The translations under genes were made by a program, and so were the position numbers. A stretch of 64,000 nucleotides of DNA from Linnemannia elongata (Eukaryota > Mortierellomycota > Mortierellomycetes > Mortierellales > Mortierellaceae). Every line of letters starts with the position of its first letter. Within the stretch, counting starts at the first letter, position 1. The DNA lies in contig JAXBDG010000011.1 of assembly GCA_036320915.1 (NCBI GenBank), forward strand, positions 84,501-148,500, in the 5' to 3' direction. The notes beneath the pieces were generated by a model that worked only from the letters and a program-made list of their open reading frames with translations, searched no databases and was not told the DNA's origin. Below are positions 22,351-57,358 of the stretch, in pieces.

Positions 22351-23998
22351 TTATTCTGGTTCCTGGTGTCGTTCGAGATATCTCTGCGCCGATGCATCGC
22401 CTCCTTGTGCAGCCCTGATGAGCCACTCCATCGCTTGTTGCTGATCCTGCAGAACACCCAATCCGTTGAGATACATAATACCGATGTTGGCTTGTGCAGC
22501 TGCAGACCCTTGATCGGCAGCCTGAAGATACCAATCCAAGGCGAGGTCGTAACGCTGTGGAACTCCCAAGCCATGGAATAACATGTTGCCGACAGCTATC
22601 TGAGCAGAGGGGTTGCCCTGGTTGGCAGACTTGAGGAACCATTCCCATGCCCTTACAAAGTCCTGAGCAACGCCTTCTCCGTGAAGATACAAGAGTCCGA
22701 TGCTGTACTGAGCGTTGGTGTTTCCCTGTGCTGCAGCCCTCTGATACCATCCCAGAGCGGTCTCAAAGTTGTGGATCACGCCATGGCCTTGGTGGTACAT
22801 CGTCCCTATGTTGTATTGCGCTTCGTGACTTCCGTGGTCTTCTGCTGCTTGGGTGAACCATTGCATCGCCCTAGAAAAATTCTGTAAGGCTCCGCCTTCG
22901 CCGTGGTAGTAAAGGCCGCCGAGATCGAGCATTGCCGAAAGGATTCCTTGTCCTGCATTGGTCCGCATCACATTTAAAGCCTCTCTCTGCAATTGAGTGT
23001 CATGGATAGTGGTGGTGGTGATGGTTGATGGTGGTGACAGCCGTTGAGTTTGAGTGTAGGGGGTTTCCGTGGAAGTAGCCATGTCAGTGGTGACAGCAGC
23101 TGGGTTGACGATAGAGGCGTGATTATCCATATTAAATCCTGTCAAACCAGACTCAGGATCACGGTAGACTGGCAGTCTTATGAATGAGTTCTTGTCAGAA
23201 GTGAGATCTGGAGGCTTCTTATGTAAATATGAAAATGCGATCGATGACATTGGAAGATCTAAGAACGATGAAGAAGCCGGTGATAGTGGAGGATCCAAGT
23301 ACGATGAAGGAGCCGATGATCGTGGAGGATCCAAGAATGATGAAGGAACCTATGGTAGTGGGGAATCCAAGAATGACGAAGGAGCCAATGGTAGTGGGGG
23401 ATCTAGGAACGATGAAGGAGCCGATGATAGTACAGGATTCAAGAACGATAAAGGAGCCGATGATAACGGAAGATCCAAGGATGGTACAGGCGATGATAGT
23501 AGATGATCCAACAACCATGAAAGTAGCGATGATAGTACAGGATACATGAACGATGAAGGAGCCGATGGCGGTGAAGGGGCCGAGGGTACGATCAGTGGGT
23601 CTCTTACTACAACATTCAAAATAACATCCAGAACGGCAGCAATGCAAGTAGGCTGCAAGCTATTTTAGAAAATAAGCGAAAGGTAATATGAGGACGGTGT
23701 CAAGACCTTTTTTCTCGTCAAGAATACACAGCATTTCGGGAGAATAAAAAAGGGGAGAAATACTGTAACTGTTGGCATACTAACAGAGGTCATCGTCCTT
23801 CACGAAAGGAGCTATATAACTCCCGTGTGTGACATATTGGATGTCTGGGAACCTTTGTTGAATATCTTCCCAAACAACGACTTGTAGCATTGCTTTTGGG
23901 TGATAAACTGTCTCTATTCTCACGATATCGTCTGGAGAGGACAGGTGAACCAGCCGAAATGACTGGCAGGTTGGCTGGGGTGAATCATCCAGCTCCAT
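22351..23998 (-). pseudogene. Sel1-repeat gene A, interrupted by an in-frame TAG
   Basis: Exon 1 (23781-23998) encodes MELDDSPQPTCQ and the unknown N-terminal module shared by all four Sel1 genes here (VVVWEDI, IAPFVKDDD). The gtatgc donor is phase 2, and exon 2 starts at 23659 (LQPTCIAAVLDVILNVVV). A Ser/Pro-rich linker made of 12-residue repeats follows. A TAG at 23350-23352 breaks the frame inside the linker; the frame reopens at once and runs through five or more Sel1 repeats (GEGGALQNFSRAMQWFTQAA, GLGVPQRYDLALDWYLQAAD) to ERHQEPE. The paralogue at 51323-52858 is uninterrupted. The stop could mark a pseudogene, sit in an unrecognised intron, or be a base error. Sel1 repeats form TPR-like scaffolds for protein binding. 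Confidence 0.75.
23241..23515 (-). repeat. 36-nt tandem repeat in the linker of Sel1 gene A
   Basis: About seven imperfect 36-base units encode a 12-residue theme (LSSAPSSFLDPP and variants). The unit length is a multiple of three, so both strands stay largely open, which explains overlapping antisense frames. The same repeat occurs in Sel1 gene B near 52240-52420. Confidence 0.75.
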
Positions 23999-51322: not shown

Positions 51323-52858
51323 TTATTCTGACTGCTGCTGGTCAAGACTGCTAGCTCGCTCAAGATATCTCTGCGCCGATGCATCGTTCCCTTTTGCAGC
51401 CCTGGTGAGCCACTGTATCGCTTCCCTCTGATCCTGACGAACACCCAGTCCGTTGAAAAACATGATGCCAATGTTCGATTGTGCAGCTGCACACTCTTGA
51501 CCAGCAGCCTTGATATACCACTCCAAGGCGTGATGGTAACTGTGTGAAACTCCCAAGCCATGGAAATACATGTTGCCGACAGCTATCTGAGCAGACGGGC
51601 TGCCCTGGTCAGCAGACTTGAGGAACCATTCCATTGCCATAACAAAGTCCTGAGCAACACCTTCTCCATTAAGATACAAGAGTCCGATGCTGTACTGAGC
51701 GCTGGTGTGTCCCTGTGCTGCTGCCTTCTGATACCATTCCAGAGCGGTCTCAAAGTTGTGGATCACGCCATGGCCTTGGTGGTGCATCGTCCCAATGTTG
51801 TATTGCGCTTCGGCACTTACGTGGTCTTCTGCTGCTTGGGTGAACCATTGCATCGCCCTAGAAAAATTCTGCAAGGTCCCGCCTTCGCCATGGTAGTAAA
51901 AGCCGCCGAGATCGAGCATTGCCGAAAGAATTCCTTGTCTTGCATTGGTCTGCATCAGATTTAAAGCCTCTCTCTGGAGTTGGGAGTCATAGACAGTGGT
52001 AGTGGTGATGGTTGATGGTGGTGGCGTTTGTTGAGTTTGAGCTTCGGAGGTTTCCGTGGAAGTAGCCATGTCAGTGGAGAGAGTAGCAGGGTTGGCGATG
52101 GGGGCGTGATTATTCATAGTAAACCCTGTCAAACCAGACTCTGGATCACGGTAGACTGGCAGTCTCATGACTGACTTCTTGTCAGAAGCGGAATTTAGAG
52201 GATTATTTTGTGAATGTTTCTCCGAAGGCGGTAAGGCGATCGATGAAGGTGGAGAATCCAAGAACGATGAAGGAGCCGATGACAGTGGAGGATCCAAGAA
52301 CGATAAAGGAGGCGACGAGAGTAGAGTATCCAATAACGATAAAGGGTGCGGTGATTGTAGAGGATCCAAGACCGATGAAGGAGCCGATGATATTGGACGA
52401 TCCAAGAACGATGAGGGATAAGATGGCGGTGAAGGGGCTGAGGGTCTGATCCGTCGAGTTCTTACTACAACATCCAAAATATCATCCAGTACGGCAGCAA
52501 AACAAAGAGGCTGCAAGCTATTTTAGAAAATAAGCGAAAGGTAATATAAGACCGGTATCAAGACCTTATTTTCTCGTCAAGGGTACACATCATCGCGATG
52601 GAATAAATTCGAGGAGAAAATACACCAACTGTCGGCATACCGGCTGTAGTCTTCGCCTCTCAGGAACGCAGGAATTATATTCCCATATTCGATCCATCGG
52701 ACGCGAGGAAACACAACTAGGACGTCGTCCCAAAACACGACTTGTTGCCTGGCTATTGAGTGATACACTGTCTCTATTCTCACGATATCGCCTGGAGTGG
52801 ACAAATGAGCCAGCCGAAATGACTGGTAGGTTGGCTGGGGTGGATCGTCCTGCTCCAT
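51323..52858 (-). CDS. Sel1-repeat protein B with unknown N-terminal module
   Basis: Two exons. Exon 1 (52641-52858, start MEQDDPPQPTYQ) carries the N-terminal module (DIVRIETVYH, VVFWDDVLVVF, IIPAFLRGED) and ends in phase 2 at a gtatgc donor. Exon 2 starts at 52517 with LQPLCFAAVLDDILDVVV. A Ser/Pro/Leu-rich repeat linker (SSAPSSFLDSPPS) and a low-complexity Thr region follow, then about six Sel1 repeats of 36 residues (GEGGTLQNFSRAMQWFTQAA, GHGVIHNFETALEWYQKAAA, GEGVAQDFVMAMEWFLKSAD, GLGVRQDQREAIQWLTRAAK) ending SLDQQQSE. Sel1 repeats are TPR-like scaffolds. It is the intact partner of gene A. No signal peptide or membrane segment was seen, so the protein is probably intracellular. Its partner is unknown. 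Confidence 0.85.
52240..52420 (-). repeat. 36-nt tandem repeat in the linker of Sel1 gene B
   Basis: About five imperfect units encoding 12-residue Ser/Pro/Leu repeats, matching the repeat in gene A. Confidence 0.7.
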
Positions 52859-53265
52859 TACTTTTTGTCATAAGTAACGTGCTAATGAGTTACTACCGTG
52901 GTGGTGAGATGAGTAGTGATTTCAACGTACTTGTGGGATGAATGTGGCTGGTGGATGAGCGAAAGAACATCACCATGGCAGTGACGCTCCTTACTCTTCA
53001 TCCATCTCCAAACGCGTGACTTGAAAAAAAGGTCCATTATGCGCCTGCGCCATAAAAAAAGATCTGAGCCAGCACACATAATCACGCTTTACACCGGGCC
53101 GCGTATGTGGGGTGACATAGAAACGAGGGTACTTTTACGCGCAATAAAAAAAGGTATGTATTCGGCCAAAAGAAAAACGGTACGCTGAACATACATGTAC
53201 GATTTTACGTCCATTTCCCTCCGCTCCCGTCTTCCCACCAAAACTACAAATTATAGAACAGCACC
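52859..53265. other. Intergenic between Sel1 genes B and C
   Basis: The first 200 bases belong to the duplication; the rest shows nothing recognisable. Confidence 0.5.
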
Positions 53266-54936
53266 CTACTTCTGAGTGGGGAGATCCTTCAATGCGGCGT
53301 CAATGTTAGCCTTCGCAAACAGATTTCCCTGCTCAACCGCCTTCTTGTACCAATCCATAGCCTTCTTGAGATCTTTCACCACACCAAGTCCCTTATAATA
53401 CAAAAGTCCAAGGTTATTCGACGCACTCCCATTGCCTTGCTCGGCCGACTTGCAGTACCACCGGTAAGCCTGCGAGTAGTCCTGTGGGGTCCCCACGCCG
53501 CTCTCATGCATGTATCCGAGTTGGAACTGGGCAGTGGTGTTTCCTTGCTCGGCGGCCCGGAGGTACCAGTCTTTGGCGACTTCGTAGTTCTGGGGAACAC
53601 CCAGGCCGCTGTAGTGCAGGGTGCCGATATCTGCCTGCGCTTGGGCGTTGCCTTGACCCGAAGCCTTGAGGAACCATTGCATGGCCTTGGTATAGTCGAT
53701 TGACACCCCACCGTCGCCCTTTCGGTACAAGTTGCCTAGGCTCCTCTGGGCGGGTGCGTATCCTTGCTCGGCAGACTTGCGGTACCATTTTGCAGCGTGC
53801 TTGTAGTCCTTGGTCACGCCGTCACCGGTCGAGTAGAGGATGGCGACTTTGCACTGTGCAGGGGCGTCGCCTTGCTTGGCTGCCTTGAGATACCACTCCA
53901 TGCCTTTTGCTTGATCCTGAGGAACGCCGAGACCCTTACAGTGGATGTTGCCGACCTTCCGTTGGGCATCTGCGTCGTCTTGTTCGGCGGCCTTTAGGTA
54001 CCATTTCAGAGCCAATTGGTAGTTCTGGGGTGCGACTATTCCCTCGAGGTACATATCGCCCAGCTTTACCTGTGCTGCGACGTCGCCCAGGTCAGCGTTG
54101 GTGTGGGTTTGCTCCAGGTTGTCCACATAGAGTTGAGGGCCACGGTGGAAGTCCTTGTTGTCGGAGTGGTTCGTTGCGTTCTGACAGGTAGAGTTGTTTA
54201 TGCTGTCCTTGTTAATGTCGCTGTCCTCAGGGATGGTCTGAGGTGCTCGGGAAGAGGTCGAAGTGGTTGAGATGACGACGGGGCTGCTCTCGGTTATCGT
54301 CAGCTTGGTGATGGTCACTTCTTGCGATACATCAATTTGGGGACCGCCGCCGCCGCCGCCACTGCCATGCCTGGTGATGGTGCTGGTGGTGGTCTCCGTG
54401 CTAATGGTGTCCTCTTCGGATATTTCTTGTTGTTGGTGTTGCCTGTTGTTGGCTTCCTGTTCCTTGCACTCGATGATGACGTCCAGGACCACGTCGGGGA
54501 TAGCAGCGATCCTTCGTGGCTCCAAGCTAGTTGTAAACAGGGGTCATGAAAACATGAGCAATAAGTAACAGTGTGAAAAATCAACATTTTCTGAATGGGC
54601 ATCAATCGGTTCCTGTAAACCTCTTAGCACACACCCCGAACCTAAAAAACCCAAAATAATAAAAAAAAAAGCACCCCTTCATCTCTTTCGTACTCACACG
54701 CGAAAATCAGCACCTTTCAAAAACGGAAGAATCCTAGCTTTATGTCGAACATGAAGGGCATCATTAAACGCCAATATGACATCGTCCCAAAGGATGACCT
54801 CCTTATCGGTTGCCGGGTCGTGTTGACAGTCGACATAGACAATATCTTCCTCTGCCGTTGGAGGTGCCATGGTGCTTTTGACGATAGCACGGAGGGCTTG
54901 GACTTTGTCTTCGGGTGTGTCGTCTGCTTGTGTCAT
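53266..54936 (-). CDS. Sel1-repeat protein C with unknown N-terminal module
   Basis: Exon 1 (54698-54936) starts MTQADDTPEDKVQALRAI and carries the module (EDIVYVDCQHDPATDKEVIL, WDDVILAFNDA, ILPFLKGADFR). The gtgagt donor is phase 2, and exon 2 from 54526 resumes with LEPRRIAAIPDVVLDVIIE. A Gln/Ser/Thr-rich linker with a GGGGGG run is followed by about seven Sel1 repeats from NADLGDVAAQVKLGDMYLEG, including GLGVPQDQAKGMEWYLKAAK, GDGVTKDYKHAAKWYRKSAE, GLGVPQNYEVAKDWYLRAAE and GVGTPQDYSQAYRWYCKSAE, ending DLPTQK. It is the most regular repeat array of the four and is outside the duplicated block. Role unknown; scaffold or adaptor inferred from the repeat type. Confidence 0.88.
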
Positions 54937-55002
54937 TTCTTTGTTGTTGGGTTATAGGCGTGCTTTGTGAATGGGTGAATGGGAGGGTGGGAGATAGAGG
55001 GA

Positions 55003-55033
<31 letters not shown>

Positions 55034-55522
55034 GAATGAGTGAGAGGGGAAGGAAGAAAGGAAGAAAGAAAGACTTTCTCATATGCTTAAAAAAAGGCGA
55101 GTGTGTGAGAAAGACGTGTCGTGTTGGGTTGGGGATTGTTCTGTGGCACTGTTTTCTTTTTTTCATGTTCCATGGTTCAGAAACATGAAAAAGCTGCATG
55201 AATAAATAAAACATTCGGGAAGACCAAGAAGAGCGGTAAAAAGGCGTTTATATGGCGAAGCCTTAAAATATGACACAATCAATTCAGGAACCATCAGTTC
55301 AGGCACCATCAGAGAGAGAGGACGGACCAGAAACGAAAGGAAGAAGGCTAGTCTCACATGTTTTTGATGACGCGCTTCGACCAATTTCTTTTCTTTTCTT
55401 TATTTTTTTGCATGGTTCATGTTTTCTCCGTCGGACTTGTAAATTGGCAGCTCCTTGGCGTTTCTTGCAGAGAAAAGAAGTTATTTATTTAATCATGCAT
55501 TTTGTGGATAACGTAGAATCGA
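54937..55522. other. Intergenic between Sel1 genes C and D
   Basis: Contains a GT repeat at 55005-55033 and a direct repeat around CATCAGTTCAGGCACCATCA (55289-55308). No gene. Confidence 0.5.
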
Positions 55523-57358
55523 TCAAAAGAACATGCCAAAGAGTCCCTTCAAAGTACCAGACCTAGGTTCTACCTGAGCCCGATGCTTTAGCCTCAACGA
55601 CTTCAACCTCTCCTCAGCACCAGTATGGCCATGCGCAAACGCCTGTGTATACCACTGTCTCGCCTTCAAGTCATCCTGAACAACACCCGTCCCTTCCTCA
55701 AACATCTGTCCGATTTCGTAATGCGCCTGTGCGTCCCCTAGGTGCGCCGCCTTCAGGTACCAATCCATCGCGCCCGAGTAGTTCCGATCCTTCTCTGGGA
55801 TACGACCCCCTTGGCCTGAAACTAGCAATGACCCAAGGGCCAACTGAGCAGGGATATAGTTTCGCGCGGCGGCCTTGAGGTACCAAGACTGGGCCTCGTC
55901 TGGGTTCTCATGGGTGCCATGACCTTCCTCGTACAGCTTGCCCAACATGTATGGAAACACTGGCTCTCCTTCCTGAGCTGCAGCCTTGCGGAACCATTCT
56001 TCGGCCATGGCGTAGTCCTGTTGAACGCCCTCACCAAGGTAGTACAGAATGCCGACACTGTACTGCGCCAAGTCATACTCCTGCTCTGCTGCCTTGAGGT
56101 ACCAATCCATCGCCGCCTTGGAGTCCTTTTTAAGATCGCTGCTGCCATGGCGGTACAGGTTTCCTAGCGCAACCTGCGCCTCGGGATCGCCTTGATCCGC
56201 CCACGTGATCGTCTCGTTGGCGCTCTTGAGCTTCGTCGGATTGCCGCATTCCCTTTCATTAAGCTTGCCGTACTCCTGGGGGGCTCGTCCTTGGTTGGTA
56301 TTGCTTGCGAGTTGAATATCCGTCGGGGTTTCGGATGCGCATTGAGGGTTGCGAGCGTAGTTCTTATATTTGTGGGGTTCGAGACGCTTGAGTGCCTCTT
56401 CCGGGACGTCGATATGGTTGTAATTGGCCAATGCCTCTTCCACCAGTCCATATTGCGGGTTCCGTAGGGCTGCATTGTGCTGGTCCTGGTTATTGGTTGT
56501 CGCCTGGGAGTTGGTTGCTTCTGCCAATGACTCGAACGATGACGTCTCCAGGGGGGCGTTAGATGTGACACGGATTCCTCGTTGCTGCCTCACCGTGGGA
56601 GCCTCCGGGGTGAACTTGGAGTAAAAGGAGGAGGGTGAGGGTGAGGAGGAAAGGCTCTTGGTGGGATTGGAGAACAGCAACGAGAAAAACGATCCCTGAG
56701 GGGTTGTCTCATTCGATGACACTGAAGAAACATTTGGTGTTATGTCCAAGAGTAATGCTTGAGGTGCAGAACTGTGTGTTGTCGGGATCGGTGGTGGTGA
56801 TGTTGGTGTCGGAGGTACTTTGGAAAATCGTTGTGGGGTTACTTTCTGCTTTGTTGGCGACTTTAATGATTTTGAAGCGGAGCCTCGGGACGAAGTCACC
56901 CTCTTACTGACAGTGCTCGTTAATCCATAGACTTGATCGTCATCATCATCTTCGTGAACAACAACCTCCAAGGTGGCTCCTGGAACTGCGGCAATTCGAA
57001 GAGGGTCAAGACTATCATTCAATTGCGAAAAAGGATATAGCCTCAGTCTTTTTTTGAATGCAAACTTGGGATCGAAAAAAGGGGGAGGTTCGGCCAGCCA
57101 ACACAAGACTTACACTTTGAATTCAGGACCCTTGAGGAAAGGGATAGCTTTTGTTCCATATTGGAGGTAGAGTGCATCACGAAAGACCATGATAATGTCG
57201 CTCCAGAGCACGACCTCCTGACCGGTGGTCGTGTCCTTGTGGGTTGCGATGTCGACTGTCTTGTTTTGGCTGGCAAGTCGAATTGCTTGGACTCCTTCGC
57301 GTGAGGTGCTTGAGGCCATAAGGGCCAGGGTCTCTTTGACAAGGTTCTCGTCGCTCAT
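55523..57358 (-). CDS. Sel1-repeat protein D with unknown N-terminal module
   Basis: Exon 1 (57114-57358, start MSDENLVKETLALMASS) contains KDTTTGQEVVLWSDIIMVF and AIPFLKGPEFK; the gtaagt donor is phase 2. Exon 2 from 57011 continues LDPLRIAAVPGATLEVVV. The intron is 102 nt. A long Ser/Thr/Pro-rich linker (about 300 residues) precedes roughly six Sel1 repeats starting TWADQGDPEAQVALGNLYRH, with DSKAAMDWYLKAAEQEYDLA, GEGVQQDYAMAEEWFRKAAA, GHGTHENPDEAQSWYLKAAA and GTGVVQDDLKARQWYTQAFA, and a basic tail ending LKGLFGMFF. The longest of the four. Role unknown. Confidence 0.88.

Follow-up and report, generated by a model that had tools for sequence, protein, structure and literature searches.

What is the module with which four Sel1-repeat genes of the soil fungus Linnemannia elongata begin, and what might it contribute to the proteins that carry it? 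The genes, here called A to D, lie in a stretch of 64,000 nucleotides (the window: GenBank assembly GCA_036320915.1, contig JAXBDG010000011.1, positions 84,501 to 148,500), which is C3:84501-148500 of the 51.1-Mb, 32-contig assembly. A first-pass annotation had noticed that all four start with the same N-terminal module, which it could not name. Judged from sequence, the family bearing this unnamed module is real and very large, and on predicted structures the module is likely a small beta-rich, one-helix domain of the DIX/TDP-43-N-terminal-domain type (ubiquitin-like fold). The genes are laid out as follows, in window coordinates.

57114..57358, reverse strand: gene D exon 1 (245 nucleotides), N-terminal module to the phase-2 intron; spliced model, and P0002 with an identical junction.
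56957..57011, reverse strand: gene D, remainder of the module at the start of exon 2, LDPLRIAAVPGATLEVVV; spliced model and module alignment.
55523..57011, reverse strand: gene D exon 2, with the module end, disordered linker and Sel1 repeats; spliced model.
56402..56464, reverse strand: gene D linker motif RNPQYGLVEEALANYNHIDVP, D residues 265-285.
55523..56179, reverse strand: gene D Sel1 region, 5 repeats by our own profile, the first at residue 360; P0002 has the Pfam label PF08238.
54698..54936, reverse strand: gene C exon 1 (239 nucleotides), N-terminal module to the phase-2 intron; spliced model, and P0013 with an identical junction.
54472..54526, reverse strand: gene C, remainder of the module, LEPRRIAAIPDVVLDVII; spliced model and module alignment.
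53266..54526, reverse strand: gene C exon 2, with the module end, linker and Sel1 repeats (7 Pfam stretches); PF08238, E 5.1e-74.
52641..52858, reverse strand: gene B exon 1 (218 nucleotides), diverged N-terminal module to the phase-2 intron; spliced model and module alignment.
52463..52517, reverse strand: gene B, remainder of the module, LQPLCFAAVLDDILDVVV; spliced model and module alignment.
51323..52517, reverse strand: gene B exon 2, with the module end, proline/serine-rich linker and Sel1 repeats; spliced model.
From about 51922 downward, reverse strand: gene B Sel1 repeats, 5 by our own profile.
23781..23998, reverse strand: gene A exon 1 (218 nucleotides), N-terminal module to the phase-2 intron; spliced model and module alignment.
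22351..23659, reverse strand: gene A exon 2, with the module end (23659-23605), linker, and Sel1 repeats past a stop.

Splicing at the point proposed in the first-pass annotation reproduced its exon 1 lengths (218, 218, 239 and 245 nucleotides in A to D) and left introns of 121, 123, 171 and 102 nucleotides, all four in phase 2 and at one point of the module. The spliced proteins of B, C and D (470, 499 and 577 residues) are open throughout. Gene A, whose nearest relative is B, has one in-frame stop, at residue 176 in the linker, with the rest open to residue 508, and because of that stop it is possibly a pseudogene. Gene models of two Linnemannia elongata database proteins span the exon junctions of D and C: P0002 (577 residues, D-like) and P0013 (470 residues, C-like, and 29 residues shorter than C, in linker and repeats). 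Alignment of the four modules (15 invariant columns) bears out a single module common to A-D, and module, linker and Sel1 array follow one another in that order, the adaptor-like layout that had been described. The C-D neighbourhood (window 53266-57358; database proteins P0004, P0014 and P0001) looks conserved, L. schmuckeri having the C-like BG015_007544 and the D-like BG015_007545 on contigs that are equally long; in L. gamsii a single gene model, P0001, combines a D-type with a C-type module and is probably two neighbours fused in annotation.

That A to D form a small local family is ruled out by genome searches with C-type and D-type modules as queries, which at E ≤ 10 list 150 and 147 matches, respectively, and when cut at E ≤ 1e-3 and merged by position leave no fewer than 128 loci. 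A distant query added 13 loci, its own included, to give at least 141; these counts are lower bounds in which fragments and broken copies are included. A multi-gene family had been foreseen correctly, but its extent beyond the four genes had not. Of 146 merged loci (any E), DNA was examined for 80 and a spliced model obtained from 74. When the phase was not fixed beforehand, phase 2 resulted in 68 of the 74 models, which is above chance, with introns of 58-383 nucleotides (median 117); the other six are fragments, poor fits and one gene that lacks this intron. The shared intron shows the common origin claimed for the four genes. By our own profile at least two Sel1 repeats occur in 53 of the 68 phase-2 models, one in 3 and none in 12, and 47 of the 48 such models of at least 350 residues have two or more. 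On contigs of more than 1 Mb and known length, the outermost 500 kb at the ends make up 41% of the sequence but hold 94 of 113 loci, tandem copies among them not being independent. Two pairs of loci (C29:266639/C29:324680 and C21:23108/C29:345242) are equal in score, identity and length, which fits recent duplication or an assembly duplicate.

Conservation of the module was followed in an alignment of 89 copies, 66 from the same genome and 23 from 22 database proteins. The consensus first proposed is refined in that Q12, R15, W52 and P85 are invariant wherever a letter is present, with LWDD(I/V), F59, PFLKG, LxPxRIAA and L(D/E)VVV strongly conserved. Pairwise identity among the 65 distinct modules of the genome averages 45%, with a minimum of 21%. 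No named domain emerged from sequence searches, as the annotation had maintained: none of the four modules drew a Pfam family at E ≤ 10, and wider Pfam scans gave a best E of 0.034 (a single member) for 22 sequences scanned at E ≤ 1 and a best E of 0.048 (again a single member) for 16 scanned at E ≤ 10. Neither the TDP-43_N family (PF18694) nor the DIX model nor the ubiquitin family was listed for any module in these scans, and searches of PDB sequences with two profiles gave best E values of 0.14 and 0.093. A search of the genome with the TDP-43_N family also found no match, but its controls were equally silent, the HMMER filters dropping most weak matches.

By sequence, then, the module stays as unrecognised as it was said to be, but by structure its fold can be recognised. 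Structure prediction followed by fold comparison placed the TDP-43 N-terminal domain as the top match in both of two models, which were built separately from alignments with no sequence in common, and of which the first is confident across the module. The computed fold is a sheet of five strands packed against a single helix, plus an additional hairpin, as in TDP-43_N, and TDP-43 stands above other ubiquitin-like folds by about 2.6 and about 1.5 Z units at best in the two models; on this modelling the fold assignment is likely correct. Foldseek added weak DIX matches (Ccd1 DIX at E 1.4 to 2.4, including chain 5y3b at E 1.4). No DIX chain is among the 50 structural matches listed for the two models, which excludes nothing, and in a viral structure library the top matches were to Sel1 only, the remainder being chance-like. 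The module differs from TDP-43_N in being matched to it by structure and not by sequence, in having about 14 residues between the first two strands of its long-loop members, and in what follows it, namely Sel1 repeats, a coiled-coil protein or a two-helix tail.

These last two contexts bear on the description of the module as one that stands ahead of Sel1 repeats, which is true of A-D but does not bind it to Sel1. A distant relative (L071, G000 C1:4182557-4182802) has the module without an internal intron, at 18-30% identity to window-type modules in alignment. Proteins of this type are about 217 residues long with two long predicted helices, and have 12 database matches (P0023-P0034) in several Mortierellaceae genera. 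A channel-like sequence in L071, putatively TRIC, was considered as part of the relative that lies upstream of it and ruled out, as the database orthologues end at 206-246 residues after the two-helix tail; the exceptions are P0026 (120 residues) and P0034, which continues into channel-like sequence and is taken for a fused gene model. Two other relatives, L082 (C1:2534600-2536900) and L083 (C30:2224300-2226600), have the phase-2 intron at the identical place (159 and 116 nucleotides in the loci at C1:2.53 Mb and C30:2.22 Mb), and beyond the module a stretch resembling a coiled coil as well as a long region that they have in common (YELHEYPIPRLF..LP, HEGY.L.RPTEFF). Scanned against Pfam, the coiled-coil relatives and one two-helix-tail protein gave a best E of 0.11. 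With about 21 more weak matches at C1:2.35-2.97 Mb, these relatives make up a second expanded family, which may end in leucine-rich repeats. Found as it is on Sel1, two-helix-tail and coiled-coil proteins, the module is portable.

A second conserved part, absent from the first-pass annotation, is apparent in the linker sequences. The pattern NPxYG..E..M.NY.H occurs between module and repeats in 21 of the 58 models of at least 270 residues, a count that did not exceed 1 in 200 shuffles; an R(G/A/S/N)PQ motif is present in 29 of the same 58. The long form, RNPxYGLxExAMxNYxHIDxP, is present in 1-3 copies, often followed by R(G/A)PQ, in proteins such as D, P0018, P0020 and P0015. P0020 also has a carboxylesterase fragment (PF00135) ahead of the module, probably an annotation fusion.

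The suggestion that the system is lineage-specific agrees with the database searches. Three queries, run against 5.8 billion protein sequences, produced 12, 11 and 12 matches, labelled only Linnemannia, Mortierella, Haplosporangium, Entomortierella, Lobosporangium, Dissophora and Gamsiella, and the four of these species that were looked up are all Mortierellaceae. As far as seen, the family is thus restricted to one fungal family, with the proviso that distant relatives could escape these searches because these depend on five-letter words in common and restrict the length of the proteins. Prokaryotic genomes, searched with one module as query, gave 84 stretches that fit a pattern, with 0 confirmed.

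What such a fold might do is suggested by its structural counterpart. The TDP-43 domain chains head-to-tail, a negatively charged side (Glu14, Glu17 and Glu21 together with the helix residue Gln34) docking on a positively charged side (Arg52, Arg55 and the Ser48 loop), according to the relevant portions of two reports (PMC5491494, PMC5830921). Among the 65 distinct modules of the genome, mean net charge is -2.28 on beta2, -1.89 on the next strand and helix, and +1.94 on beta4-beta5, with segment borders read by eye from the structure model. An acidic beta2 is combined with a basic beta4-beta5 in 57 of the 65, a correspondence by segment and not residue-matched to Glu14/17/21 and Arg52/55; 26 of 4032 segment pairs equal this 57-of-65 pattern, and shuffles reach at most 19. 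Such a layout would be expected of a self-docking surface that has been preserved. Our tentative reading, held with a little less than even confidence, is that the DIX/TDP-43-type module self-associates weakly head-to-tail and so builds a Sel1 scaffold. The acidic beta2/helix face of one module would fit against the basic beta4-beta5 face of its neighbour, and these weak contacts would gather the Sel1 arrays. Such arrays hold client proteins, and on their flexible linker they could make of the chain a multivalent scaffold. We infer the scaffold role and the clients, as we do self-association itself, which is the best-supported guess at present; it is weakened by the consideration that common descent alone could preserve the charge layout.

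A plain two-ended adaptor, as the first-pass annotation had imagined, is the principal alternative and a possibility to be taken seriously, at somewhat lower probability: the module would be a monomeric ubiquitin-like domain binding one protein while the Sel1 array binds another. It sits poorly with the lead of TDP-43 over other ubiquitin-like folds in both models, and with the conservation of a two-faced charge layout. Quite improbable is an account in which the match reflects a common beta-grasp arrangement or model error, and the family a fast-turnover expansion of unrelated function without shared mechanism, given that models from non-overlapping alignments agree on the best match, that the first is confident throughout, and that core positions are strongly kept at 45% mean identity, which argues for selection on a fold.

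Among known systems there are both likenesses and differences. The TDP-43 domain has been called DIX-like, and its chains are likened to DIX chains, in passages of two papers (PMC5491494, PMC7042713), the DIX systems being those of Dishevelled, Axin and plant SOSEKI; searches of fungi for DIX with plant and animal queries are given as negative in the section concerned (PMC7042713). Ubiquitin and conjugated ubiquitin-like proteins differ in their free C-terminal di-glycine, whereas the module has a long linker and other domains after it. Like Sel1 (HCP-like) proteins of PF08238, B, C and D have 5 to 7 Sel1 repeats (by Pfam on C, by our own profile on B and D), but no Pfam family corresponds to their module, which is found on proteins lacking the repeats as well. 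Rhizophagus irregularis offers a parallel as an early-diverging fungus whose Sel1 families are large too, its high-copy Sel1-like genes being grouped with signalling genes; the part of that report describing them lists kinase, BTB, Kelch and Sel1-like among its classes, without any such N-terminal module, a difference by description only (PMC8647823). A Sel1 domain met with in another study is said there to have no clear function in fungi (PMC8778642). No description of the module was seen in open-licence papers on Mortierella, Linnemannia or Mortierellomycota with TDP-43 or Sel1, and those on Mortierella and NLR gave nothing of use.

If the fold is right, a signalling-filament fold class is present in more than 100 copies in a soil fungus and was missed by sequence searches, Pfam being without a model that detects it. 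The 65 distinct modules would then be a natural library for the gain and loss of head-to-tail interface specificity. One may go further, though we regard this as doubtful, and picture the Mortierellaceae as owning a chain-forming DIX/TDP-43-like domain, at about 140 loci and in at least three kinds of protein (Sel1 scaffolds, coiled-coil proteins whose C-terminal region is conserved, and two-helix-tail proteins), whose diversified interfaces would allow numerous filaments, separate or mixed, to form signalosomes, perhaps for partner or non-self recognition. Again provided that the fold is right, the module would offer a first handle on the role of large Sel1 families in early-diverging fungi.
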